Assembly: GCA_020056865.1 (NCBI GenBank)
Contig: JAGVGX010000224.1
Coordinates: 1-12,709 of the forward strand
Length of the DNA: 12,709 bases
From: Desulfobacterales bacterium
GTDB taxonomy: Bacteria > Desulfobacterota > Desulfobacteria > Desulfobacterales > BuS5
Direction of reading: 5' to 3'
Part shown: one piece after another, positions 3,520-12,199 of the stretch
Layout: every line of letters begins with the position of its first letter
Position numbering within the stretch: position 1 is the first letter of the stretch
The notes under the pieces: model-generated
Told to the model about the DNA's origin: nothing
Seen by the model: the letters and a program-made list of their open reading frames with translations, nothing else
Database searches by the model: none
Program-made: the position numbers and the translations under genes

Positions 3520-3555
3520 ATTTTAAAATTAAGTGCTTTTTTTATTTTACAATTT

Positions 3556-3618
3556 GTAACTACTTAGGAGTCAGAATTCTGACTCCTGAATTCTGAATTC
3601 TGTCTCCTGAGCAGTTAC
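3556..3618. repeat. Full-length heptamer palindrome, MITE-like
   Basis: A 63-base (9 x 7) element with inverted ends: GTAACTACTTAGGAG on the left and the complement of GTAACTGCTCAGGAG on the right. Inside, 3566-3587 is a perfect 22-base palindrome centred on GAATTC, and the remainder is heptamers of the TGACTCC and TGAATTC type. ACAATT occurs shortly outside both ends, possibly a target duplication. It lies 24 bases before the ABC ATPase start and also resembles sequences at 6156, 10267 and 11428. Confidence 0.85.
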
Positions 3619-3642
3619 AACAATTCATCAGGTTTTTTAAAA

Positions 3643-4380
3643 ATGGTTCCGATCTCATTTAATAATTTAAGCAAAAGTTTTTCATACGGGTTTACAGGCC
3701 GGCAAAACGTTTTAAAATCCATTTCGCTTAACGTTGAAAAGGGGGAGGTTTTCGGTTTTTTGGGCCCCAACGGAGCCGGTAAAAGCACCGCCATCAACAT
3801 CGCTCTTGGTTTTATCAGGCCTGATGCCGGCCAGGTTTTGATTAATGGCATTGTATCAACACAAAAATCTGCCAGAAAATATCTCGGATACCTTCCGGAG
3901 CATCCGGTTTTTTATGATCACCTTAAAGCCTGCGAACTCCTTGAATTCAGCGGTCTTGCTTCGGGGATGCAAAAACAGGAATTAAAAACAAGAATAGACC
4001 CCATTCTTGAAAAAATGGAACTGCTCCCGTTTAAAAACAGGCTTGTAAAAACCTTTTCAAAAGGGATGAAACAACGGATCGGCCTTGCCATGGCCATGAT
4101 TGCCAACCCGCCCATTTTAATTCTGGATGAACCCATGTCCGGCCTTGATCCTATGGGCAGAAAACTTGTTACCAATCTTATTCTTGAGATGAAATCGGAA
4201 GGCAAAACCATTTTTTTCAGTTCCCACATTCTAAACGATGTGGAGACGCTCTGCGACAGTATTGCGGTGATTCATAAAGGCCAATCACTTTACTCCGGAG
4301 ATGTTAAGGGGTTTAGAAATGATTTTTCAAATCTCGAAGATGCGTTTATTGCCCGTATTTCGTCTGAAGAAGATATGTAA
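3643..4380 (+). CDS. pilH: ABC transporter ATPase of the pilus locus (PilH-like)
   Basis: A 245-residue ABC nucleotide-binding subunit. Visible motifs are Walker A GPNGAGKST (41-49), a signature in the form SKGMKQR (139-145), Walker B LILDEP (159-164), D-loop SGLD (166-169) and the switch His in SSHIL (193-197). The Q-loop position has Glu (YLPEHP), common in the CcmA/NatA-like group that pairs with ABC-2 permeases. The permease gene follows on the same strand. In Myxococcus xanthus an ABC ATPase called PilH, encoded next to pilA, is needed for pilus biogenesis, and the gene symbol is proposed on that analogy. It is not the chemotaxis protein PilH of Pseudomonas. The ribosome site is weak. 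Confidence 0.85.
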   Translation: MVPISFNNLSKSFSYGFTGRQNVLKSISLNVEKGEVFGFLGPNGAGKSTAINIALGFIRPDAGQVLINGIVSTQKSARKYLGYLPEHPVFYDHLKACELLEFSGLASGMQKQELKTRIDPILEKMELLPFKNRLVKTFSKGMKQRIGLAMAMIANPPILILDEPMSGLDPMGRKLVTNLILEMKSEGKTIFFSSHILNDVETLCDSIAVIHKGQSLYSGDVKGFRNDFSNLEDAFIARISSEEDM

Positions 4381-4391
4381 GATGAGAAAAG

Positions 4392-4474
4392 GGGTCGAGG
4401 GGTCAAGGGGCCAAGGATTCAAGTGAAAGGCGTTTTAAAACACTTGAACCCTCGAATCCTCGAATCCTTGAACC
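4392..4474. repeat. Octamer palindrome, copy 1
   Basis: Four 8-base units on the left (GGGTCGAG, GGGTCAAG, GGGCCAAG, GATTCAAG) and four on the right (CTTGAACC, CTCGAATC twice, CTTGAACC) flank a 19-base core containing GTTTTAAAAC, with TG and CA closing the stem. The two sides are largely complementary, so the element can fold into one long hairpin. It fills most of the gap between the ATPase and permease genes and would be transcribed with them. A second copy lies at 8115-8173 with an identical centre. Confidence 0.85.
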
Positions 4475-4528
4475 CTCAAAAAATTTGTGATAAGAACCAA
4501 AAAATAAAAAATATTGAAAGTGTAACTC

Positions 4529-5341
4529 ATGCTAAATATCTGGCTTGTTATGAAAATAACGTTTAAAGAAGGAATCAGAAGCAGGATCCTTTTTGGCATC
4601 AGTCTGCTTGCGCTGTTTCTGTTTGCATCTAATATTTTCATTACCAATCTGTTTGCGTTTGAGCTTGGCAAAGTGATGGTGGATATTGCATTTTCATCGC
4701 TTTCAATCGCCGGCCTTTCCATTATTTTCTTTCTTGGCATTGGCCTTTTGAGCCGTGATATTCATCAGAAAACCGTTTATATGATCATCAGCCGGCCGAT
4801 CACGAGATTGCAGTACACGGTTGGTAAATTCTGCGGGCTTGCGCTTATTCTTTTAACAGCAATGGGGATTTTAGGCCTGCTTGCAGTTGTTTCTTTTTTT
4901 GTCTGTTCCAATATGGTTACAGGCGCCGAGCTTCCGAGAAACTTTTCGTGGCTGCACGTATTAACAGCGATTTTTTTTAATTTTCTTTCTCTTTTAGTGG
5001 TCATGTCGTTTGCGTTTTTCTTTACGGTTATTTCATCAAGTATTTATCTGGCCATGCTGTTTTCTTTTGCCGTGTATCTGATAGGCCACAGCATGGAAAC
5101 GATTGTAAAAATTATTGAGCGCGGTGATTTTATAGATACCAGCCCTTTATTTGTTTCTGTGATGAAAATCATCAGTTGGGTGGTTCCCAACCTTTCGGCC
5201 TTTGATATAAAGGCCGGTGTTGCATATGGGTTGCCGGTTGATCCGGTGTGCCTTTTCTGGACAGCCATGTATGGATGCACCTACACCGTGTTGATGATCA
5301 TGTTTACGTGTATGGTTTTTCATCGGAAGGATGTATGCTAA
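4529..5341 (+). CDS. pilI: ABC-2 family permease of the pilus locus (PilI-like)
   Basis: A 270-residue inner-membrane protein with about six predicted membrane helices (near 20-43, 53-74, 103-128, 145-168, 170-187 and 243-264). After helix two comes RDIHQKTVYMIISRPITR (76-93) and then GK (99-100), the cytosolic coupling segment typical of NosY/ABC-2 permeases. It should pair with the ATPase encoded upstream and overlaps the next gene by 7 bases. By analogy with the Myxococcus pil cluster the transporter would support pilus assembly; its substrate is unknown. The symbol is tentative. Confidence 0.8.
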   Translation: MLNIWLVMKITFKEGIRSRILFGISLLALFLFASNIFITNLFAFELGKVMVDIAFSSLSIAGLSIIFFLGIGLLSRDIHQKTVYMIISRPITRLQYTVGKFCGLALILLTAMGILGLLAVVSFFVCSNMVTGAELPRNFSWLHVLTAIFFNFLSLLVVMSFAFFFTVISSSIYLAMLFSFAVYLIGHSMETIVKIIERGDFIDTSPLFVSVMKIISWVVPNLSAFDIKAGVAYGLPVDPVCLFWTAMYGCTYTVLMIMFTCMVFHRKDVC

Positions 5342-6156
5342 CCTGTCGCAACTATGCCATATTCAGTGGGGTGTTTGTTTTTGTCATTTCAACGTATATC
5401 TATAGCGCCATAAAGGTTGAAGGGTTTAGAGACCGGTTTGATCCTGCCCAGCAGATTTCAGCATTGATGGTGTCACCGGAAATTCTCGAAGTGGCCGGCG
5501 GAGAATTCAAATTTCTTCTCGCTGACTATCTGCTGATGAAAGCAAGTGTGTTTCTTGGCGGAACATACGGCACTAAACCTTCCGACTGGCAGGCGATTGC
5601 CGCCCTGATGAAACAGTCGCTGCACCTTGACCCGTATTTTTTTCAAACCTGTTATTATGTTCAGAGCTTTCTGGCATGGAAGCGGCCTATGGTTAAAGAG
5701 GCCATTGAATTGTTAAAAATCAGCAAACACTACCGAACCTGGGACTGGCAGCCGGGTTTTTACATCGGGTTTGATTATTATTATTTTCTTAAAGATAATC
5801 TAAGCGGCTCAAAATATCTTATGGAAGCATCGAAAAAGTCCGGGGCTTCTCCATTATTGGCCTTGCTCGGCGCTCGATTGGCTCAAAAAGGCGGGGCAAC
5901 ACAAGCCGGAATTTTATTTCTGGCGAACATGTATGAAACTACCGATGATGAGCACGCGAGAAAAGACATCGAAATGCGGATAGAGGCATTAAAAGGGGTT
6001 CTTGTTCTTGAAAAAGCCATTGAAACGTTTACAGCGAAATTTAATCGTGAACCTGACACGTTAGAGGAGCTGACAACGGAAGGCATTTTAGAATCCCTGC
6101 CGATCAACCCTTACCTGAAAGAGTACCAATACAAAAACGGACAGGTTGAATTTTAG
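5335..6156 (+). CDS. Membrane-anchored helical-repeat protein, third gene of the pilus transporter operon
   Basis: The frame is open from 5248, but the ATG at 5335 is preferred: it has GGAAGG just upstream, overlaps the permease stop (ATGCTAA), and puts a membrane anchor (YAIFSGVFVFVISTYIYSAI) at residues 6-25 of a 273-residue protein. The middle (about 60-230) is helical and TPR-like, with pairs such as MKQSLHLDPYFFQ and NMYETTDDEHARKDIE. The C-terminal 50 residues carry an EPDTLEEL...LPINPY pattern also seen in pseudopilin-like tails. It probably works with the transporter at the inner membrane, like the extra protein (PilG) of the Myxococcus set, but similarity to PilG itself was not shown. 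Diverged fragments of this gene recur at 6301, 8185, 8719 and 10170. Confidence 0.8.
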   Translation: MLTCRNYAIFSGVFVFVISTYIYSAIKVEGFRDRFDPAQQISALMVSPEILEVAGGEFKFLLADYLLMKASVFLGGTYGTKPSDWQAIAALMKQSLHLDPYFFQTCYYVQSFLAWKRPMVKEAIELLKISKHYRTWDWQPGFYIGFDYYYFLKDNLSGSKYLMEASKKSGASPLLALLGARLAQKGGATQAGILFLANMYETTDDEHARKDIEMRIEALKGVLVLEKAIETFTAKFNREPDTLEELTTEGILESLPINPYLKEYQYKNGQVEF

Positions 6157-6205
6157 TAACTACTCAGGAGTCAGGAGTCAGGAGTCAGAATTCAGGAGTC
6201 AGAAT
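6156..6205. repeat. Left half of the heptamer element
   Basis: It begins with GTAACTACTCAGGAG at the last base of the preceding stop codon and continues as in-phase heptamers CAGGAGT (6165, 6172, 6179), CAGAATT (6186), CAGGAGT (6193) and a final CAGAAT. The right inverted end is missing. It shares its left end with the element at 3556. Confidence 0.85.
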
Positions 6206-6246
6206 GAAAAAGATATTGGTTATACGGAATAATAATTATAAACCCT

Positions 6247-6382
6247 CCCTAATTTAGGGACGCCCTAATTTAGGGACGTCCTTGACGAATTAAACTTACT
6301 GGGAAAAGTCCGGGGCTTCTCCTTTACTGGCCTTGCTGGGCGCACGATTGGCACAAAAAGGCGGGGCAACACAAGCCGGAAT
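6247..6382 (+). repeat. Chimeric repeat, copy A: REP-like unit fused to a pilus-operon gene fragment
   Basis: 6247-6259 is CCCTAATTTAGGG, a near-perfect inverted repeat, partly repeated downstream. 6267-6300 is the REP-like leader with palindrome GGACGTCC. From 6301 to 6382 the DNA matches 5831-5912 of the third pilus-operon gene at most positions, with scattered substitutions. The match ends abruptly at 6382. There is no start codon, so it is not expressed as protein. Confidence 0.85.
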
Positions 6383-6510
6383 CCAGATCCTGCCCCCTTT
6401 TGTCCCCCCTAACCCCTGCCTCTCGCTCCCTTTTTTATTTTTAACCTTCAGCTAAATTGCAGGCCCTGCCGGCGGTGTTGCTCAAGCTGACAGATGAAAG
6501 GTTTCCGCAG
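6383..6510. other. Unassigned stretch between a repeat and the minus-strand ATPase
   Basis: Pyrimidine-rich DNA (about 6388-6440, runs of C and T) is followed by a GC-richer part. On the plus strand 6457-6522 could encode ALPAVLLKLTDERFPQL ending in a stop just inside the ATPase gene. I do not recognise it; it may be a gene fragment. No start or ribosome site was found. Confidence 0.35.
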
Positions 6511-7749
6511 TTATCCTGTTAACATAAGAAAATTGGTTGCCGGAATTACAAAACAGTTTCCGGGAAATGTTTCAACTTTTCCGGCATTATGGACAATCTG
6601 GTAGAATGGGATGTTGAGCTTTTCTCCATAAAATCTACCTGCTTTACTAATATCAGTATCGCTTTCTTTTGTCTCAAACAGGCAGACAGAGTGATTGTCT
6701 TTTACCAGGACAAAATCAACTTCCCGCTTTTCCCTGTCACGGAGATACCGGATTTCAAAATTCCCCAAACCGGTTTCCGTCATTCTTGCCGCCATACGTA
6801 TAAGGCTGACGGCCATAAGGTTTTCAAAAATAACTCCTGGTTCAGACAGCATTGACCAGCCAAAGAAATAGAGTTTCTGCTCCTTTTTTATTGCCCGTGC
6901 TATTTTTTTATGCCAGGGACGCAGTGTAAAAACCAGATAAAGACCCTGCAATATATCTATCCAGTTCTTTATGGTATCGTATTTTTTCCCCAGGTCTTCG
7001 CTCAATGACGGGATGCTAATCTGAGAGCCGACTTTTGCAGGAAGGATTTCCACGAGCGTCTCAAGGCCTTTAATGTCTGCAATCCGTGAAAGATCACGCA
7101 CGTCTTCTTTTGTCAGCAGGTTCCTGTAATTATTCTGCCATCTTCGATGAAACTTTTCTGTGCCCCTGAGAAACGGCTCCGGGAATCCTCCGAATTTCAA
7201 CAGGTTTTCAAGGGCTTCATTCGCTCCCTGCGTTTTAGCCTCCCTCGCGCGTCCTGCCAAAAGGCTGCCGTCGGCAAAAATCTCGCCGTTGTCGAGAATA
7301 TGAGAAAAATCAGCCGTGACCTCAGGAAGTCCCAGCGGAAAAAGCTGATAGGAAAAGTATCGTCCAATCAGTGAGTCTCCGGACTTTTGAAAATAACCTA
7401 ACCTGGCGGAACCTGTAACAAGAAGCTGCATTTTTTCGCGATTAATGTCATAAAAACCTTTAAGAATATTCCTCCATTCCGTATGTTTATGAATCTCATC
7501 AAACACGAAAGGAACAGGATCGTTCTTGAATTTTTCATCGATAATGTTCCGAAAATAGAGCGGATTCTTCTTGTACTCTGCCATTAACGATGGGTCATCC
7601 CAGTTAAAGTATGTGTCTTTCGAGCCGACTGACTCAAGCCATTTCTGAGCAAAAGTGGTTTTTCCCACCTGCCTGGGACCAGTCAGAAAGATCATCTTCC
7701 CCGCTGTCATTTCAGGATCAAATATATATCTGCCAATTAATCGTTTCAT
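6511..7749 (-). CDS. AAA ATPase with C-terminal DUF4143 domain
   Basis: A 412-residue ATP-binding protein of the AAA_14/DUF4143 family, common next to TA genes. The N-terminal P-loop domain has Walker A GPRQVGKTT (24-32), Walker B FVFDEIHK (81-88) and a sensor-like LLVTGSARL near 109-117, then the family's GRYFSYQLFPLG segment. The C-terminal half (about 200-390) is DUF4143, ending with a nuclease-like pattern EVDFVLVKDN then LFETKES, as in PD-(D/E)xK folds. Length is normal for the family and it appears intact. Its cellular role is unknown; defence or TA-related roles are suggested only by context. It is the only minus-strand gene between pilR and the AbiE pair, and no ribosome site is seen. 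Confidence 0.88.
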   Translation of the reverse strand: MKRLIGRYIFDPEMTAGKMIFLTGPRQVGKTTFAQKWLESVGSKDTYFNWDDPSLMAEYKKNPLYFRNIIDEKFKNDPVPFVFDEIHKHTEWRNILKGFYDINREKMQLLVTGSARLGYFQKSGDSLIGRYFSYQLFPLGLPEVTADFSHILDNGEIFADGSLLAGRAREAKTQGANEALENLLKFGGFPEPFLRGTEKFHRRWQNNYRNLLTKEDVRDLSRIADIKGLETLVEILPAKVGSQISIPSLSEDLGKKYDTIKNWIDILQGLYLVFTLRPWHKKIARAIKKEQKLYFFGWSMLSEPGVIFENLMAVSLIRMAARMTETGLGNFEIRYLRDREKREVDFVLVKDNHSVCLFETKESDTDISKAGRFYGEKLNIPFYQIVHNAGKVETFPGNCFVIPATNFLMLTG

Positions 7750-7756
7750 GGCGCTT

Positions 7757-7784
7757 ATTATCCATATTACTGGAATATTGTCAA
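7757..7784 (-). promoter_or_regulatory. Sigma-70-type promoter of the DUF4143 ATPase, possibly leaderless
   Basis: On the minus strand TTGACA (7784-7779) is followed after 16 bases by GATAAT (7762-7757). Transcription would start near 7750, directly before the ATG at 7749. With no Shine-Dalgarno sequence, the mRNA may be leaderless. Confidence 0.6.
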
Positions 7785-7886
7785 GACCATTTTCCCTAAT
7801 TATGGATTATTGTCGATAGGGGGGAATTACCGGCGGAGTTTACCCCCGCGAAGGCGGATGACGAAATCTTTCTTTTGAAAAATCAG

Positions 7887-7915
7887 TTGATAATCTTTGC
7901 TGAAAGCGTTACATT
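7887..7915 (+). promoter_or_regulatory. Probable promoter of the 49-residue antitoxin-like gene
   Basis: TTGATA (7887-7892), a 17-base spacer and TACATT (7910-7915) form a reasonable sigma-70 promoter about 28 bases before the ATG at 7944. It diverges from the ATPase promoter across a gap of about 100 bases. Confidence 0.5.
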
Positions 7916-7943
7916 TAAACTGAATTAACTAAGGGGGTAAATA

Positions 7944-8093
7944 ATGAGAACTATAGAAACAACCGCAAGGGTGGGGAATGACCGCAAAGTGAACCTCTTT
8001 TTGGAATTTCCGAAAGAAGTTTCACCAGGTGATTACAGGATGCTAATTATTGTGGAAGAAAAGGCTGTGAGTCCTGTTGAATTAGGGACATAA
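7944..8093 (+). CDS. Small antitoxin-like protein, possibly truncated
   Basis: A 49-residue frame with a strong site AAGGGGG 6 bases before the ATG. The sequence (RTIETTARVGNDRKVNLFLE, then a SPGDYRMLIIVEE segment) resembles the N-terminal beta domain of small antitoxins usually paired with PIN toxins, which begin with a similar ET-A-V-DG-K-L-P-PG-V-VV-EE pattern. Such proteins are normally longer, with a toxin-binding tail. Here the frame ends in VELGT at GAATTAGGGACATAA, which resembles the start of the REP-like unit found in this window, so the tail may have been replaced. No toxin gene follows. Family placement is from pattern memory. Confidence 0.55.
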   Translation: MRTIETTARVGNDRKVNLFLEFPKEVSPGDYRMLIIVEEKAVSPVELGT

Positions 8094-8114
8094 GCGCTAA
8101 CTTAAAAGAGCAAG

Positions 8115-8173
8115 GGGTCAAGTGAAAGGCGTTTTAAAACACTTGAACCTTCGAATCCTTGAATCCTCGAACC
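8115..8173. repeat. Octamer palindrome, copy 2
   Basis: One left octamer (GGGTCAAG) and four right octamers (CTTGAACC, TTCGAATC, CTTGAATC, CTCGAACC) flank the same core as at 4392-4474; 32 consecutive central bases (8118-8149) are identical in the two. Compared with copy 1 the left arm is shortened by about three units. It sits between the 49-residue gene and a pilus-gene fragment. Confidence 0.85.
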
Positions 8174-8184
8174 CTATTTTCATA

Positions 8185-8225
8185 TAAAAGGGTATCAATA
8201 TAAAAACGGGCGGGTTGAGTTTTAA
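8185..8225 (+). pseudogene. 3'-end fragment of the pilus-operon third gene, copy D
   Basis: In the reading frame of the intact gene this encodes KGYQYKNGRVEF and a stop, matching the last 13 codons at 6118-6156 with mainly synonymous or conservative changes. It directly follows the octamer palindrome. No start codon or upstream coding part is present. Confidence 0.8.
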
Positions 8226-8243
8226 TGAAAATAATCCTATAAA

Positions 8244-8271
8244 TTGTCAAGTAACTTTCAAACGATAATAA
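8244..8271 (+). promoter_or_regulatory. Possible promoter of hicBA copy 1
   Basis: TTGTCA (8244-8249), a 16-base spacer and TAATAA (8266-8271) lie just upstream of the hicB ribosome site. The fit is moderate and the start of transcription would be very close to the gene. Confidence 0.4.
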
Positions 8272-8282
8272 AGGTGATCTTC

Positions 8283-8474
8283 ATGGAAACAAAAAAATTT
8301 ATGTATTATCAAGACGAAGATATGTTCGTTGGTTGGCTGGATGAGTTTCCTGATTATAAAACACAAGGGGAAACTCTTGATGAATTAAAGGAAAATCTGA
8401 AAGACATATATGAAGAATTAACCAATGGAACGATACCTTACGTTATTCAAGTCGGGGAGCTTCGTGTTGCATGA
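8283..8474 (+). CDS. hicB: HicB-family antitoxin, copy 1
   Basis: A 63-residue short HicB with the degenerate RNase-H-like fold: a strand containing MYYQDEDMFVGWLDEFPDY, then TQGETLDELKENLKDIYEEL, the conserved helix with T-x-E-E-A-like spacing. The ATG at 8283 is chosen over an in-frame TTG at 8244 because AAGGTGAT lies about 8 bases upstream. It has no C-terminal DNA-binding domain, like the roughly 70-residue HicB subgroup. Its stop overlaps hicA as ATGA (8471-8474). The antitoxin-first order is the reverse of the E. coli hicAB operon. Confidence 0.88.
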   Translation: METKKFMYYQDEDMFVGWLDEFPDYKTQGETLDELKENLKDIYEELTNGTIPYVIQVGELRVA

Positions 8475-8653
8475 AGCGCAAAGATTTAATCCGTGCAATT
8501 GAGCGAATGGGATGCATTTTTATTCGTCATGGCGGCAGACATGACTGGTATCAGAATCCTGAAACGAAAATATCGCAACCAGTTCCCCGACATAGCGAAA
8601 TAAGAGATTCATTAGCAAAGCATATTCTTAAAATGTTTAAAGGAAGATCATAA
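8471..8653 (+). CDS. hicA: HicA-family mRNA interferase toxin, copy 1
   Basis: A 60-residue double-stranded-RNA-binding-fold toxin. It has KRKDLIRAIERMGC (helix 1), GGRHDWYQNP with the catalytic-type His24, and the PVPRHSEIRDSLAKHILK end typical of HicA. All key residues are present, so it is expected to cut mRNA when free of HicB. It is translationally coupled to hicB. Confidence 0.9.
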   Translation: MKRKDLIRAIERMGCIFIRHGGRHDWYQNPETKISQPVPRHSEIRDSLAKHILKMFKGRS

Positions 8654-8684
8654 GATTTTTTAAATAGTGCCCGGAATTGTAAGG

Positions 8685-8804
8685 AATTTAGGGATGTCCT
8701 TGACGAATTAAACTTACTGGGAAAAGTCATGGGCTTCTCCGTTATTGGCATTGCTCGGCTGCCTAAAAGGGTATCAATACAAAAACGGGCAGGTTGAGTT
8801 TTAA
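8685..8804 (+). repeat. Chimeric repeat, copy B, with internal deletion
   Basis: 8685-8718 is the REP-like leader (one base changed to GGATGTCC). It joins the pilus-gene fragment at the same junction as copy A, runs about 40 bases, then jumps near 8760 to the gene's last codons, encoding LKGYQYKNGQVEF and a stop at 8802-8804. The middle and later part of the gene are deleted. Confidence 0.85.
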
Positions 8805-8832
8805 TCCACAGATTTCACAGATTACGCTGATT
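8805..8832. repeat. Short nonamer repeats (CACAGATT type)
   Basis: Three approximate 9-base units (CCACAGATT, TCACAGATT, ACGCTGATT) follow copy B. Such runs are common between genes in many bacteria. No function is assigned. They end about 10 bases before the proposed cassette boundary at 8842. Confidence 0.6.
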
Positions 8833-8862
8833 TGCATCGTTGTTGGGCATCCGTAATCACGC

Positions 8863-8891
8863 TTGACGTTAGTCACGAGATGCGTTACTAT
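8863..8891 (+). promoter_or_regulatory. Promoter of higBA
   Basis: TTGACG (8863-8868), a 17-base spacer and TACTAT (8886-8891) make a strong sigma-70 promoter. Transcription would begin about two bases before or at the higB ATG (8900), so higB may be translated from a leaderless mRNA. It lies inside the proposed cassette. Confidence 0.7.
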
Positions 8892-8899
8892 ACAACAAC

Positions 8900-9178
8900 A
8901 TGATTAAATCATTCAAGTGTGAATACACCGAAGCACTCTCAAAAGGCCGGCGTGTCAGGCAGTTCGTGAACATCGCTAAGGTGGCGCGGCGTAAGCTTAG
9001 ACAGCTCGATATCGCCGGTCGACTTGATGATCTGAGGGTGCCGCCCGGTAATCACCTTGAAGCACTCAAGGGTGATCGTTCCGGTCAATACAGCATTCGT
9101 ATCAATGATCAGTGGCGTGTCTGTTTTTGCTGGACGGATGCGGGTGCAGAAAATGTTGAAATCGTCGATTACCACTAA
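8900..9178 (+). CDS. higB: HigB-family toxin
   Basis: A 92-residue RelE-superfamily toxin of the HigB/plasmid-killer type. It begins MIKSFKCEYTEAL and continues with a VARRKLRQLD helix, DDLRVPPGNHLEALKGDRSGQYSIRINDQWRVCF, and the terminal VEIVDYH. Pattern, length and toxin-first order with higA are characteristic. HigB proteins cleave mRNA in translating ribosomes. No Shine-Dalgarno sequence is present, consistent with the leaderless start suggested by the promoter position. HigA starts 13 bases after the stop. The gene appears complete. Confidence 0.92.
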   Translation: MIKSFKCEYTEALSKGRRVRQFVNIAKVARRKLRQLDIAGRLDDLRVPPGNHLEALKGDRSGQYSIRINDQWRVCFCWTDAGAENVEIVDYH

Positions 9179-9191
9179 GGGAGAGTCCATT

Positions 9192-9533
9192 ATGAGCAAG
9201 CTTGAGCCTATTACTCCAGGCGAAATCCTCCTGGAGGAGTTTCTAATACCGATGGGTCTTAGCCGGTACCGTTTGGCCAAGGAAATTGGCGTTCCTGCTC
9301 AGCGTATCAGTGAGATTGTTGCGGGCAGGCGTTCGATCACAGCTGATACCGATTTACGGCTGTGTCGGTTCTTTGGCCTTTCTAACGGCTATTGGTTGAG
9401 AGCTCAGGCTGCTCACGACACGGAGGTTGCAGAGCACACTCTTGGCCCGTCGCTAAAAAAGATCAAACCCTGGTCTACGTTTGCGGCCCAACATGCCATT
9501 GGAGGGGATGCGAATAACTTGCGGTCTTCGTAG
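9192..9533 (+). CDS. higA: HigA-family antitoxin with an unusual C-terminal tail
   Basis: A 113-residue HTH_3 antitoxin. An in-frame start further up (9057) lies inside higB; the ATG at 9192 with AAGGGAG upstream matches the family N-terminus (EPITPGEILLEEFLIPMGLS). The helix-turn-helix is RYRLAKEIGVPAQRISEIVAG with the RRSITADTDLRL segment after it. It should bind HigB and repress the higBA promoter. HigA proteins usually end near position 95-100; here about 20 extra residues (FAAQHAIGGDANNLRSS) are read through the start of the proposed attC, a habit seen in integron cassette genes. Confidence 0.9.
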   Translation: MSKLEPITPGEILLEEFLIPMGLSRYRLAKEIGVPAQRISEIVAGRRSITADTDLRLCRFFGLSNGYWLRAQAAHDTEVAEHTLGPSLKKIKPWSTFAAQHAIGGDANNLRSS

Positions 9534-9572
9534 GTCATACCGTGCGCTCACTCCTCAAATTTTTCGTTAGGT
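9484..9572 (+). other. Candidate attC recombination site of the higBA cassette
   Basis: R'' is GCCCAAC (9484-9490), followed by a 5-base spacer and L'' ATTGGAGGGG. L' is CTCCTCAAAT, followed by a 5-base spacer (TTTTC) and R' beginning at G9566. L'' and L' pair at 8 of 10 positions. The symmetric 5-base spacers, about 89-base length and R-box complementarity to the cassette's own start are hallmarks of attC. A covariance-model search (attC model) would decide it. Confidence 0.65.
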
Positions 9573-9608
9573 GCATAATGATTATCAAATTTATTTGGAG
9601 GTATACCT

Positions 9609-9821
9609 ATGAACAATCTATATACTGCCGTCACAAAAAAAGATGGGAACTGGTGGGTGGGTTGGATATCAGAGGTTTCTGGGGTTAACTGCCAGGAACG
9701 AACTCATGAAGAATTATTGGAAAGTTTAAAAATAACATTAAAAGAAGCTTTGGATTTTAATCGGAATGATGCATTAATAGCAGCAGGCAATGATTACCAA
9801 GAAGAACAAATTGCTTTATGA
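9609..9821 (+). CDS. hicB: HicB-family antitoxin, copy 2
   Basis: A 70-residue short HicB. Strand one reads YTAVTKKDGNWWVGWISEVSGVN, then CQERTHEELLESLKITLKEAL, the family's regulatory helix. The ribosome site GGAGG lies about 10 bases before the ATG. It has no C-terminal DNA-binding domain. The stop overlaps hicA as ATGA (9818-9821). It differs strongly from copy 1, so the two are separate acquisitions, not a duplication. Confidence 0.88.
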   Translation: MNNLYTAVTKKDGNWWVGWISEVSGVNCQERTHEELLESLKITLKEALDFNRNDALIAAGNDYQEEQIAL

Positions 9822-10006
9822 AAAGAAAAGAATTACTTAAATATCTTCGCAATAATGGTTGCGAATTTTTAAGGGAAGGTGGTCGTTATTCATGGTGGCA
9901 TAATCCAACATTGAATAAAAGGTCAGCTGTTCCAAGACATAATGAAATTAGAGATATTTTGGTAAAGAAAATTTGTAAAGATCTTAGTATACCACCAGTA
10001 AAATAG
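9818..10006 (+). CDS. hicA: HicA-family protein, copy 2, catalytic His replaced by Tyr
   Basis: A 62-residue HicA with KRKELLKYLRNNGCEFLREG and the SAVPRHNEIRDILVKKICKDL end. Aligned on GGR, the position of the catalytic His (His24 of copy 1, in GGRHDW) is Tyr24 (GGRYSWW, codon TAT at 9887-9889). A single C-to-T change would explain it. The protein may be inactive or may use His28 (WWHNP) instead. It is coupled to its hicB and ends exactly at the proposed attC. Confidence 0.85.
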   Translation: MKRKELLKYLRNNGCEFLREGGRYSWWHNPTLNKRSAVPRHNEIRDILVKKICKDLSIPPVK

Positions 10007-10078
10007 CACATAACGATCGCATACAGGCTGACACCCAAAGCCGAGCCGGTTTTTGCTTTTGCGAACACCTTGTTAAAA
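10006..10078 (+). other. Candidate attC site of the hicBA cassette
   Basis: R'' GCACATAAC (10006-10014) is followed by GATCGCA, and TGCGAAC lies before the right end, giving complementary inner arms (TCGCA with TGCGA). The right core is GTTAAAA (10072-10078). Spacers are asymmetric and the right core is imperfect, so the site is weaker than the one at 9484. Confidence 0.45.
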
Positions 10079-10114
10079 GTTGCATTTACCAAGGTTTTTG
10101 TTGGTTTTGGGAGG

Positions 10115-10330
10115 AATTTAGGGACGTCCTTGACGAATTAATTTAGGGACGTCCTTGACGAATTAAACTTACTGGAAAAAGTCCTGGGCTTCTCCTTTAC
10201 TGGCCTTGCTGGGCGCACGATTGGCACAAAAAGGCGGGGCAACACAAGCCGGAATTTTATTTCTGGCTCCTGAGCAGTTACTGGCGAACATGTATGAATC
10301 CACGGATGACAAGGACGGCAAAAAGACCTT
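10115..10330 (+). repeat. Chimeric repeat, copy C, longest, with an in-frame insertion
   Basis: The REP-like unit is present twice in tandem (25-base units 10116-10140 and 10141-10165). It joins the pilus-gene fragment at the same junction as copies A and B and extends to about 10330, encoding KKSWASPLLALLGARLAQK, then QAGILFL, then NMYESTDDKDGKKT in the original frame. An 18-base insert (10267-10284) interrupts it. No start codon is present, so it is a pseudogene fragment. Confidence 0.85.
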
Positions 10331-10661: not shown

Positions 10662-10904
10662 ATGGAAATAAAAAAATCATACATTACCGATGAAAGCGGG
10701 GCAATTAAAAATGTTGTGATCGACCTTGACACATTTAGAAAAATTGAAGGCTTAATTTTAGATCAAGGGCTTGCAAAGGCCATGGATGAAGTACAAGATG
10801 ATGTTGAATATGATATTGAAGAAGCAAAGATATTATTGAAACAGGAGGGTTTCAAGTACGAATATGATGAGAAAAAGGATGAATATCGAATTGTTCCAGA
10901 ATAG
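10662..10904 (+). CDS. Small antitoxin-like protein without an adjacent toxin
   Basis: An 80-residue acidic protein. The stretch SYITDESGAIKNVVIDLDTF with KIEGLILDQGLAKAMDEVQDD resembles short Phd/YefM-like antitoxins that precede RelE toxins (ITDE-G-VVIDYETFKKIEELL pattern). AGGAGG lies 5 bases before the ATG. In this group the antitoxin usually stops soon after EAKILLK; here 20 charged residues follow (KYEYDEKKDEYRIVPE), and no RelE frame follows. The toxin was probably lost and the tail acquired by readthrough. Family placement is from pattern memory. Confidence 0.65.
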   Translation: MEIKKSYITDESGAIKNVVIDLDTFRKIEGLILDQGLAKAMDEVQDDVEYDIEEAKILLKQEGFKYEYDEKKDEYRIVPE

Positions 10905-11020
10905 GCCCAACAAATCATCGGAGCCAATCGCCTGGAAAGAACACCCGCCGCTGGCTCAATTCTGTGTTCGCTGCCATGAAACACATAAGTTGTTTTTGTC
11001 TATAGCGGATAAGAAGCTTA

Positions 11021-11082: not shown

Positions 11083-11316
11083 ATGAAAGCAACGGCAAAA
11101 GACCTAAGATTTAATCCAAAGGCGCTTCTTGATACGGTCAATAGGGGCGAAGAGGTTGTAATAACCTTTCGCGGCAAGCCCTGCACAAAACTTATTCCCT
11201 ACGATTGGGAAAATGAACAAAACACAACAAACGAATTGTTTGGAATCTGGAAAGATAACGATTTGGTCCAAAACGTCGATGAGTATGTCCGAGGATTAAG
11301 AAAAGGAAGATTCTAA
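11083..11316 (+). CDS. Phd/YefM-type antitoxin
   Basis: A 77-residue antitoxin of the Phd/YefM fold. The N-terminal DNA-binding domain reads MKATAKDLRFNPKALLDTVN, then RGEEVVITFRGKPCTKLIPY, the typical G-E-x-V-x-I-T-x-x-G-K-P stretch. The C-terminus (ELFGIWKDNDLVQNVDEYVRGLRKGRF) is the toxin-binding tail common to antitoxins of PIN toxins. A strong site AAGGAGGTG precedes the ATG. The stop TAA is directly followed by the vapC ATG. The gene is intact while its toxin is truncated. Confidence 0.88.
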   Translation: MKATAKDLRFNPKALLDTVNRGEEVVITFRGKPCTKLIPYDWENEQNTTNELFGIWKDNDLVQNVDEYVRGLRKGRF

Positions 11317-11436
11317 ATGGTTATCGATATGGATGTCCTTATTTGGTACATGAAAGGGAATCAAAACGCATATAAAGCTATTGAGAATTCAAAGCATTTT
11401 TTTATCTCTGTTGTCACATATATGGAATTTATATGA
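11317..11436 (+). pseudogene. VapC (PIN) toxin cut off after 39 codons by a repeat element
   Basis: The start reads MVIDMDVLIWYMKGNQNAYK, then an AIENSKHFFISVVTYMEF segment, a clear PIN N-terminus with Asp4/Asp6 and the conserved Glu after TYM. A full VapC has about 130 residues; here the frame ends with TGA at 11434-11436, which lies inside the left arm of a palindromic repeat. No later PIN motifs are found beyond the repeat, so the remainder is deleted. The toxin should be inactive. Confidence 0.85.
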
Positions 11437-11521
11437 GAATACAGGAGTCAGAATACAGAAGAAAAACAAATACCATGTTTATTCTGGCTACTGACTCCTG
11501 TCTCCTGTATTCTCATATAAA
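11428..11521. repeat. Palindromic heptamer-type element that ends vapC
   Basis: Perfect 20-base inverted arms at 11428-11447 and 11502-11521, containing ATATGAGAATACAGGAG. Inside are heptamers of the AGGAGTC/GACTCCT type, as in the element at 3556, but with other ends (GAGAATACAGGAG instead of GTAACTRCTYAGGAG). It can form a long hairpin, between the truncated vapC and the convergent abiEii gene. Confidence 0.85.
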
Positions 11522-11554: not shown

Positions 11555-12199
11555 CTATAATGCCCCTTTTAATATCTTAAAATTTTCAACAGAATAATAT
11601 TGGCGTTGTTCTTTTTCTAATAATGAGCCAAGCCTGACTGTATAATCTTTCCTGGAAAAAGCATTAATACGCCTGAGAACCTGTCTTCGCGTATCATCAG
11701 ATGCCTGAAGCGGCACACCTTTCTTAAGCAGAAATTCCATGTCAAAGACATCCCTGATTTCCTGACGATCCAGAAATGCCTCAAGCTTTGACGCCATCAT
11801 GTCGCTCAAGGATACGGCCCTTAAAAAAATCTGCGTATTTGCATATTTGCTGTAAGCGATTAACTGTTCCACGTTGATTTTTTTGACTTGCCTGCGAATT
11901 TCCAGTTTCAGGCTTCTCGGATACGTATGCGATTTGAGTTCAAAAACAAGGGTATGAAATTTCCTTGCGCTGTCTTTTATGTCATAATGTTTTGCAAGGT
12001 AAGCCTTCATTTTCTCAAAAAACCCAGGTTCCAGCTCCTTGATAACCCAGAAGTCCAGATCAACGGAAAATCGGTCGAGGTTATGGCACAGACGTAACAT
12101 GGTCCCGCCGCAAAAGACAATATTTGTGAGAAATTTACCGCTGTTGAGCCTGTCGAGAACTTCAAGCTCAAATCGTTCCTGCATGATTAAATCCTGCAT
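11555..12199 (-). CDS. AbiEii-type nucleotidyltransferase toxin
   Basis: A 214-residue member of the AbiEii/DUF1814 family, the toxin of type IV AbiE systems, which inactivates translation by adding nucleotides to tRNA in characterised members. The nucleotidyltransferase motif is GGTMLRL (31-37) with SVDLDF (45-50); a further acidic strand LKLEIRR follows near 100. The family signature SDMMASKLEAFLDRQEIRD with FDMEFLL lies near 131-157. The start at 12199 has GGGAG upstream and overlaps the antitoxin gene by 13 bases; an alternative ATG at 12184 lies 3 bases after the antitoxin stop. Length is a little shorter than many AbiEii proteins. Confidence 0.88.
   Translation of the reverse strand: MQDLIMQERFELEVLDRLNSGKFLTNIVFCGGTMLRLCHNLDRFSVDLDFWVIKELEPGFFEKMKAYLAKHYDIKDSARKFHTLVFELKSHTYPRSLKLEIRRQVKKINVEQLIAYSKYANTQIFLRAVSLSDMMASKLEAFLDRQEIRDVFDMEFLLKKGVPLQASDDTRRQVLRRINAFSRKDYTVRLGSLLEKEQRQYYSVENFKILKGAL

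Follow-up and report, generated by a model that had tools for sequence, protein, structure and literature searches.

Positions 8842–10111 of the window (the whole stretch of DNA analyzed, 12,709 nucleotides) are very probably an integron-cassette relic: a complete higBA cassette (8842–9566, with its recombination site attC1 at 9486–9572) to which a hicBA cassette (from 9567) is attached by a normal junction. The attC belonging to hicBA no longer has its L' and R' boxes; a local repeat around 10112 apparently took part in a later rearrangement that removed them. The borders of higBA, the complementarity of its start and end, the completeness of attC1, the missing right half of the second site (attC2) and the lack of an integrase in the window were established by comparison. 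The initial annotation had proposed two toxin–antitoxin (TA) cassettes forming an integrase-less cluster (CALIN). Sequence comparison gives good support to an origin as cassettes in the case of higBA and fairly good support in that of hicBA; the part of the proposal that does not survive is a CALIN with two attC sites, attC2 being truncated.

Borders of the higBA cassette

The higBA module comprises, on the + strand, a RelE-like HigB toxin of 92 aa (8900–9178; PF05015, E 1.8e-18) and a HigA antitoxin of 113 aa (9192–9533; TIGR02607, 96.7 bits against a cut-off of 47.7), the last codons of which lie in attC1. The left end of the cassette is marked by the R'-type core GTTGGGC (8842–8848, + strand), identified from the borders of relatives and from the start/end complement, and the recombination point would lie after G8842. 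This word is present where the initial annotation had placed it; its exact reverse complement GCCCAAC is likewise found near the end of higBA, at 9486–9492 and not at 9484–9490 as given there. Since GCCCAAC occurs twice in the 12.7 kb window (at 9486 and 10905), a 7-base complement alone is weak evidence.

All 7998 HigA relatives with an E-value of 1e-10 or better were scored. The window HigA was aligned with 32 of 120 listed relatives, leading to the best 80 of 546 confirmed genome loci, to which the following counts refer. More than 100 nt of flanking DNA is available on both sides in 76 of the 80, and conservation of the flanks beyond the borders, named in the initial annotation as a refuting result, was seen in none of the 80. 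Counting matches that overlap higBA, no locus is similar to the window left of 8838; the match starts before 8950 in 55 of the 80 loci, at 8838–8845 in nine cases and at 8846–8862 in 44. On the right, 30 matches end at 9486–9501, 48 at 9431–9485, one at or before 9430 and one (L040) at 9512, so that the match reaches the R'' box in 31 of the best 80 loci and fades inside higA before R'' in the other 49. By these alignments the left border is sharp, and the right border is sharp in part of the relatives only. The printed flanks (36 right and 29 left ends) are mostly dissimilar, the exceptions being L019 and L021, which appear to be one and the same array, and some mutually alike attCs. Short matches to the window outside higBA were found in four loci: L050 (10012–10096) and L019, L021 and L036 (near 1050–1318).

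To locate R'' boxes we searched for [AGT]YYYAAC within 45 nt after the KPW codons of HigA. The box is found in 33 of 79 testable higBA loci versus 184 of 4157 control stretches, 30 times at the identical offset; its lack within this distance in the remaining 46 of 79 counts against the cassette reading. Start and end could be compared in 21 "readable" loci, that is, those where an AAC end stands in its predicted position and a GTT start lies no more than 6 nt from its own: they are complementary at all seven positions in ten, at six of seven in six and at fewer in five, and the ten exact loci include a compensated pair, GTTGAGC/GCTCAAC, in L004 and L016. The higBA unit thus shares its borders at unrelated sites among the best 80 of 546 loci, 76 of them with both flanks. 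The search of related genomes suggested in the initial annotation was successful in this respect and unsuccessful in another: an empty insertion site was not found among 395 genomes.

Upstream of higB, within the cassette, lies a promoter-like sequence, TTGACG-17-TACTAT (8863–8891, + strand), assigned by consensus match only. The region has three promoter-like sites versus 2.2 in shuffles, which is no excess; among 64 relatives, 37 carry TTGAC[AG]-N15-19-TANNNT ahead of higB, an uncontrolled count.

attC1 and the tail of HigA

The complete site, attC1 (9486–9572, + strand), consists of R'' GCCCAAC (9486–9492), L'' (about 9498–9507), L' (about 9550–9559) and R' GTTAGGT (9566–9572), and the bases of R' after G9566 are part of the hicBA cassette. 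Its L boxes pair, as had been noted from the sequence. The symmetric 5-base spacers described at the same time are a matter of fit: the best fit of our script has a bulged base in L'' and spacers of 6 and 7, and an alternative fit by eye has spacers of 5 and 5 with one mismatch.

Among 17 attC arm pairs from relatives the two helices covary, with 39 cells changed on both sides; none of 500 shuffles reaches the covariation score, and slid versions score lower. A pair-aware attC score, trained on these 17 arm pairs, ignores the loop and is compared with resampled windows. By this score attC1 is the top + strand site, at 37.0 against a maximum of 21.7 in 200 resampled windows (0/200 reach it). 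It is still the top site, at 32.0 against a maximum of 24.4, when the five higBA rows are excluded from the training set, and none of 100 resampled windows in a separate run reaches it, the highest being 25.1. A simple box scan, only moderately telling, gives attC1 a score of 7.0; 6.0 is reached by 13 of 300 resampled windows.

A covariance check of the kind suggested in the initial annotation gave the outcome listed there as refuting, no attC hit at either site. A home-made covariance model, R1, was built from the 17 attC arm pairs with their loops cut; the rows dropped from training were L053 and the minus-strand hit in L031 (of 16 script hits) and L113, L134 and L122 (of six hicBA attCs). 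R1 detects short-loop attCs in relatives; at E ≤ 10 its matches include neither of the window sites, attC1 and attC2. Run on its own training set, it does not list L158, L030 (4303–4377) or L045 (776–853) and gives L038 and L066 other ends; because it loses or misplaces long-loop attCs of the set it was trained on, we used the pair-aware score with resampled windows. An Rfam scan of the window at gathering thresholds gave no match.

Gene ends had been described as lying at or inside the R'' boxes. This applies to hicA, whose stop (10004–10006) is one base off its R'', and not to higA, which runs through R'' and stops at 9531–9533, inside attC1 and 45 nt past the start of R'' (the range in relatives is 9–45 nt). 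The HigA frame extends past R'' in 32 of the 33 relatives that have the box (loci from the best 80 of 546), so the tail of the antitoxin in this cassette family is, by its predicted reading frame, encoded by the attC and changes with it.

The probable hicBA cassette and the remnant of attC2

The hicBA cassette starts on the + strand with TTAGGTGCA (9567–9575), assigned from matching relatives. It encodes a HicB-like antitoxin of 70 aa (9609–9821, + strand), which has no Pfam or NCBIfam match and has relatives up to 97% identical, several of them named HicB by their sources and those at 93–97% (P0121–P0125) located on metagenome contigs, and a HicA toxin of 62 aa (9818–10006, + strand; PF07927, E 2.3e-9). 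Relatives of hicBA are present in 8 of 46 genomes and in 29 of 395. Four of them (L106, L111, L116 and L118) start with GTTAGGGC and end with CCCTAAC, and in L149 an attC with model support comes after hicBA, with two more model matches in the array (5266–5328, 4601–4664 and 8674–8729) and an integron integrase (IntI) over the TIGR02249 cut-off on the same contig. An R'-like box upstream of hicB is found in 12 of 35 loci versus 150 of 1010 controls, and an R''-like box at the hicA stop in 7 of 34 testable loci versus 52 of 996 control stretches; because the latter is present in 7 of 34 only, most hicBA relatives are not visibly in cassettes.

Of attC2, what remains (10006–10111, + strand) is R'' ACATAAC (10008–10014), L'' ATCGCATACA and a long loop, without any L' or R'. 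The stretch aligns with four loci, L050, L164, L165 and L167, from matches in 3 of 395 genomes, L164 and L167 coming from one genome. In each of the four, a CTTTGGGTGCAG-like arm comes next, followed by GTGATGCG (L'). Beyond L', L165 has GTTGAAC, L167 has GTTGGCA and L164 has GTTCCCG, which departs from the R' consensus, and L050 is much longer, up to GTTAGAC; the full long attCs of L164, L165 and L167 measure 125–130 nt. The window tracks these relatives to TTGGTTTTGGG and then reads AGGAATTTAGGGACGTCC, a repeat with several copies nearby. By loss of homology and by the repeat families D1/D2, a junction with the local repeat AGGAATTTAGGGACGTCCTTGACGAATTAA (10112–10166, + strand) replaces the right half of attC2; no exact copy of the repeat at 10112 was found in any of the 170 loci. 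The alignment thus leaves hicBA with a truncated attC2 in place of a complete one. In L166 and L100 the left part of attC2 is held in common and the right side diverges, so this type of shortening may not be unique. The core pattern of attC2 was also met in one viral contig, L170, where it seems to fall within coding sequence, and was taken as chance.

The loop of the remnant is identical to that of L164, L165 and L167 at 67–69 of 86–87 positions each, and to that of L050 at 60 of 75. Within the stretch examined, L164, L165 and L167 have no likeness to HigBA or HicBA, L050 being the exception. The loops of attC sites are generally regarded as free to vary. We consider it a speculative and rather unlikely idea that the long-attC class of the hicBA remnant has a conserved apical loop with a candidate function, for example as a binding site or terminator, and that breaks at local repeats may be a recurrent route by which wandering TA cassettes become fixed. 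In L050, the cassette array also contains reading frames (3531–4877), which we take to resemble a group II intron reverse transcriptase.

Origin of the cassettes and comparison with known systems

By Pfam, seven or more modules or remnants of TA type lie in the window. The surroundings of higBA and hicBA include MazE/AbrB-like (1078–1284), Unstab_antitox/ParE (1614–2140), HicA with a partner (8244–8653), RelB-like (10662–10904), Phd/YefM (11083–11316) and AbiEii (11555–12199). The surrounding "pilus-gene fragments" of the initial annotation are in fact pieces not of the pilin but of an ORF (5248–6156) that follows a pilin-like gene and an ABC transporter; fragments of it are repeated between TA modules (5789–10330), like a row of decayed paralogues. 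Its best relative is 54% identical, and no close relative of the whole region was found in 395 genomes. The DNA at 1060–1284, with the MazE/AbrB-like gene, is 91–95% like a gene after an attC in the higBA-bearing array L019/L021 and 69% like L036; on visual inspection its toxin partner seems truncated, and it is possibly another former cassette. Repeats with a 14-base period, of the ACTCCTGACTTCTG type, lie at several module borders (2302–2339, 3572–3609, 6155–6213 and 11436–11507), and the one near 11430 adjoins a short frame that is PIN-like by eye. By eye, too, 8826–8848 resembles the right half of an attC, a likeness with no scored support, and can likewise be taken for a common intergenic repeat.

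Directly after the RelB-like stop lies the second-best attC-like site of the + strand (10905–10972; score 22.3). It is reached by 0 of 200 resampled windows with 17 training attCs and by 7 of 200 with 12, and in the 100-window run, with its highest score of 25.1, it is exceeded by at least one. There is no GTTRRRY word between 9661 and 10803 and hence no matching cassette start for this site; the RelB-like neighbor has a relative in 1 of 297 genomes.

As had been noted initially, no integrase is seen within the 12.7 kb window: six IntI proteins give a best tblastn E-value of 0.30, and Pfam finds none in the 19 reading frames tested (of 62 of at least 50 aa). Among relatives, an IntI over the TIGR02249 cut-off is present in 22 of the 46 genomes that hold 46 of the 80 higBA loci versus 0 of 14 control genomes, and L159, on one contig with L021, combines higBA, attC matches and such an IntI. 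In plasmids, higBA DNA has matches of 60–80% identity in 35 records, none covering 80%, and hicBA DNA has no match. HigA relatives occur in 28 phage records, all below 60% identity, and 15 were found in viral contigs, the best at 74%; searches for HicB in viral contigs and for the left flank of the cassettes in phages gave nothing.

The annotation had placed a complete second attC at 10006–10078, with R' GTTAAAA, which would make both cassettes excisable by IntI acting in trans. The word GCACATAAC (10006–10014) does match the complement of GTTAGGTGC, at the start of hicBA, in 8 of 9 positions, and there is a GTT at 10072. However, that pair scores −9.2, and the word at 10072 lies in the loop of the homologous long attCs of L164, L165 and L167, where L' follows 44–45 nt and the R' candidate 56–57 nt further on; L050 has no GTT at the matching position. 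The alignment largely contradicts two complete cassettes, which we regard as very improbable. We think it equally far-fetched that the modules are ordinary chromosomal TA operons with chance GTTGGGC and GCCCAAC words, even if such a 7-base complement is unremarkable, its second half recurs in the window and R1 misses both sites: borders shared across unrelated genomes, covarying ends and the attC structure stand against it. For higBA, the borders, R'' boxes and start/end complements of relatives contradict this explanation; for hicBA the contradiction is weaker.

Within the cassette-relic reading, an integron integrase in the present or an ancestral genome would have joined higBA and hicBA as cassettes, which would have reached their current place by off-target insertion or by the break-up of an array. 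Insertion at an attG-like site by an IntI encoded elsewhere in the genome, with later damage to the right end, has in our estimate close to an even chance. No high-scoring + strand attC ends at 8842, PMC8618304 names off-target insertion among the routes proposed for cassettes that lack an integrase, and attG sites are described in PMC12901181; against it, no empty site was seen in the 395 genomes, and with the right junction lost the target is unreadable. That the cassettes are instead the end of a larger broken array, whose integrase and remaining cassettes were lost through rearrangements among local repeats, is a real possibility that we hold short of probable: the break in attC2 falls at a repeat with several nearby copies and the weaker attC-like site follows the RelB-like gene, but the window holds no trace of IntI. 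On either route, a rearrangement at the local repeat would then have removed the right half of attC2. Only one attC is complete and 8842 has no att site with a high score, so that excision by attC × attC recombination is predicted to be impossible, and neither cassette should leave by this path now. For this reason, and as TA modules that would resist loss, higBA with its own promoter-like sequence, the cassettes would persist; attC1, as a predicted site, may remain able to take up a cassette in a cell that has an IntI.

Cassettes with HigB/HigA and HicA/HicB are known from chromosomal integrons and metagenome cassette surveys (PMC7370490, PMC4909258). The window shares with them the two-gene TA cassette, the R'-type start and the R'' at the gene end, and differs in having no integrase in view and a second cassette without the right half of its attC. 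A CALIN, as described in PMC8618304, is a set of attC-bearing cassettes without a nearby intI. Here, too, attC-bearing cassettes occur with no intI in 12.7 kb, but with one complete attC and one half, the candidate at 10905–10972 being weaker. The usual CALIN call requires at least two attCs. Truncation of an attC by deletion, with R'' still recognizable, is ascribed to Partridge et al. 2009 in PMC12901181. The likeness lies in the recognizable original R'' and the deleted remainder; the known cases are discussed for mobile resistance integrons, whereas the window has a TA cassette and a break at a local repeat. Loot et al. 2024 is said to describe cassettes inserted at attG sites, and such insertion would account for cassettes outside an integron. 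TA cassettes, integrase-less attC clusters and truncated attCs are thus already known, and the window is an instructive relic, not a new system. In a TA-crowded region, a full cassette adjoins one with a halved recombination site, which illustrates a way in which TA cassettes may come to stay outside integrons; the case is also a caution against taking a word in the loop for an R' box.
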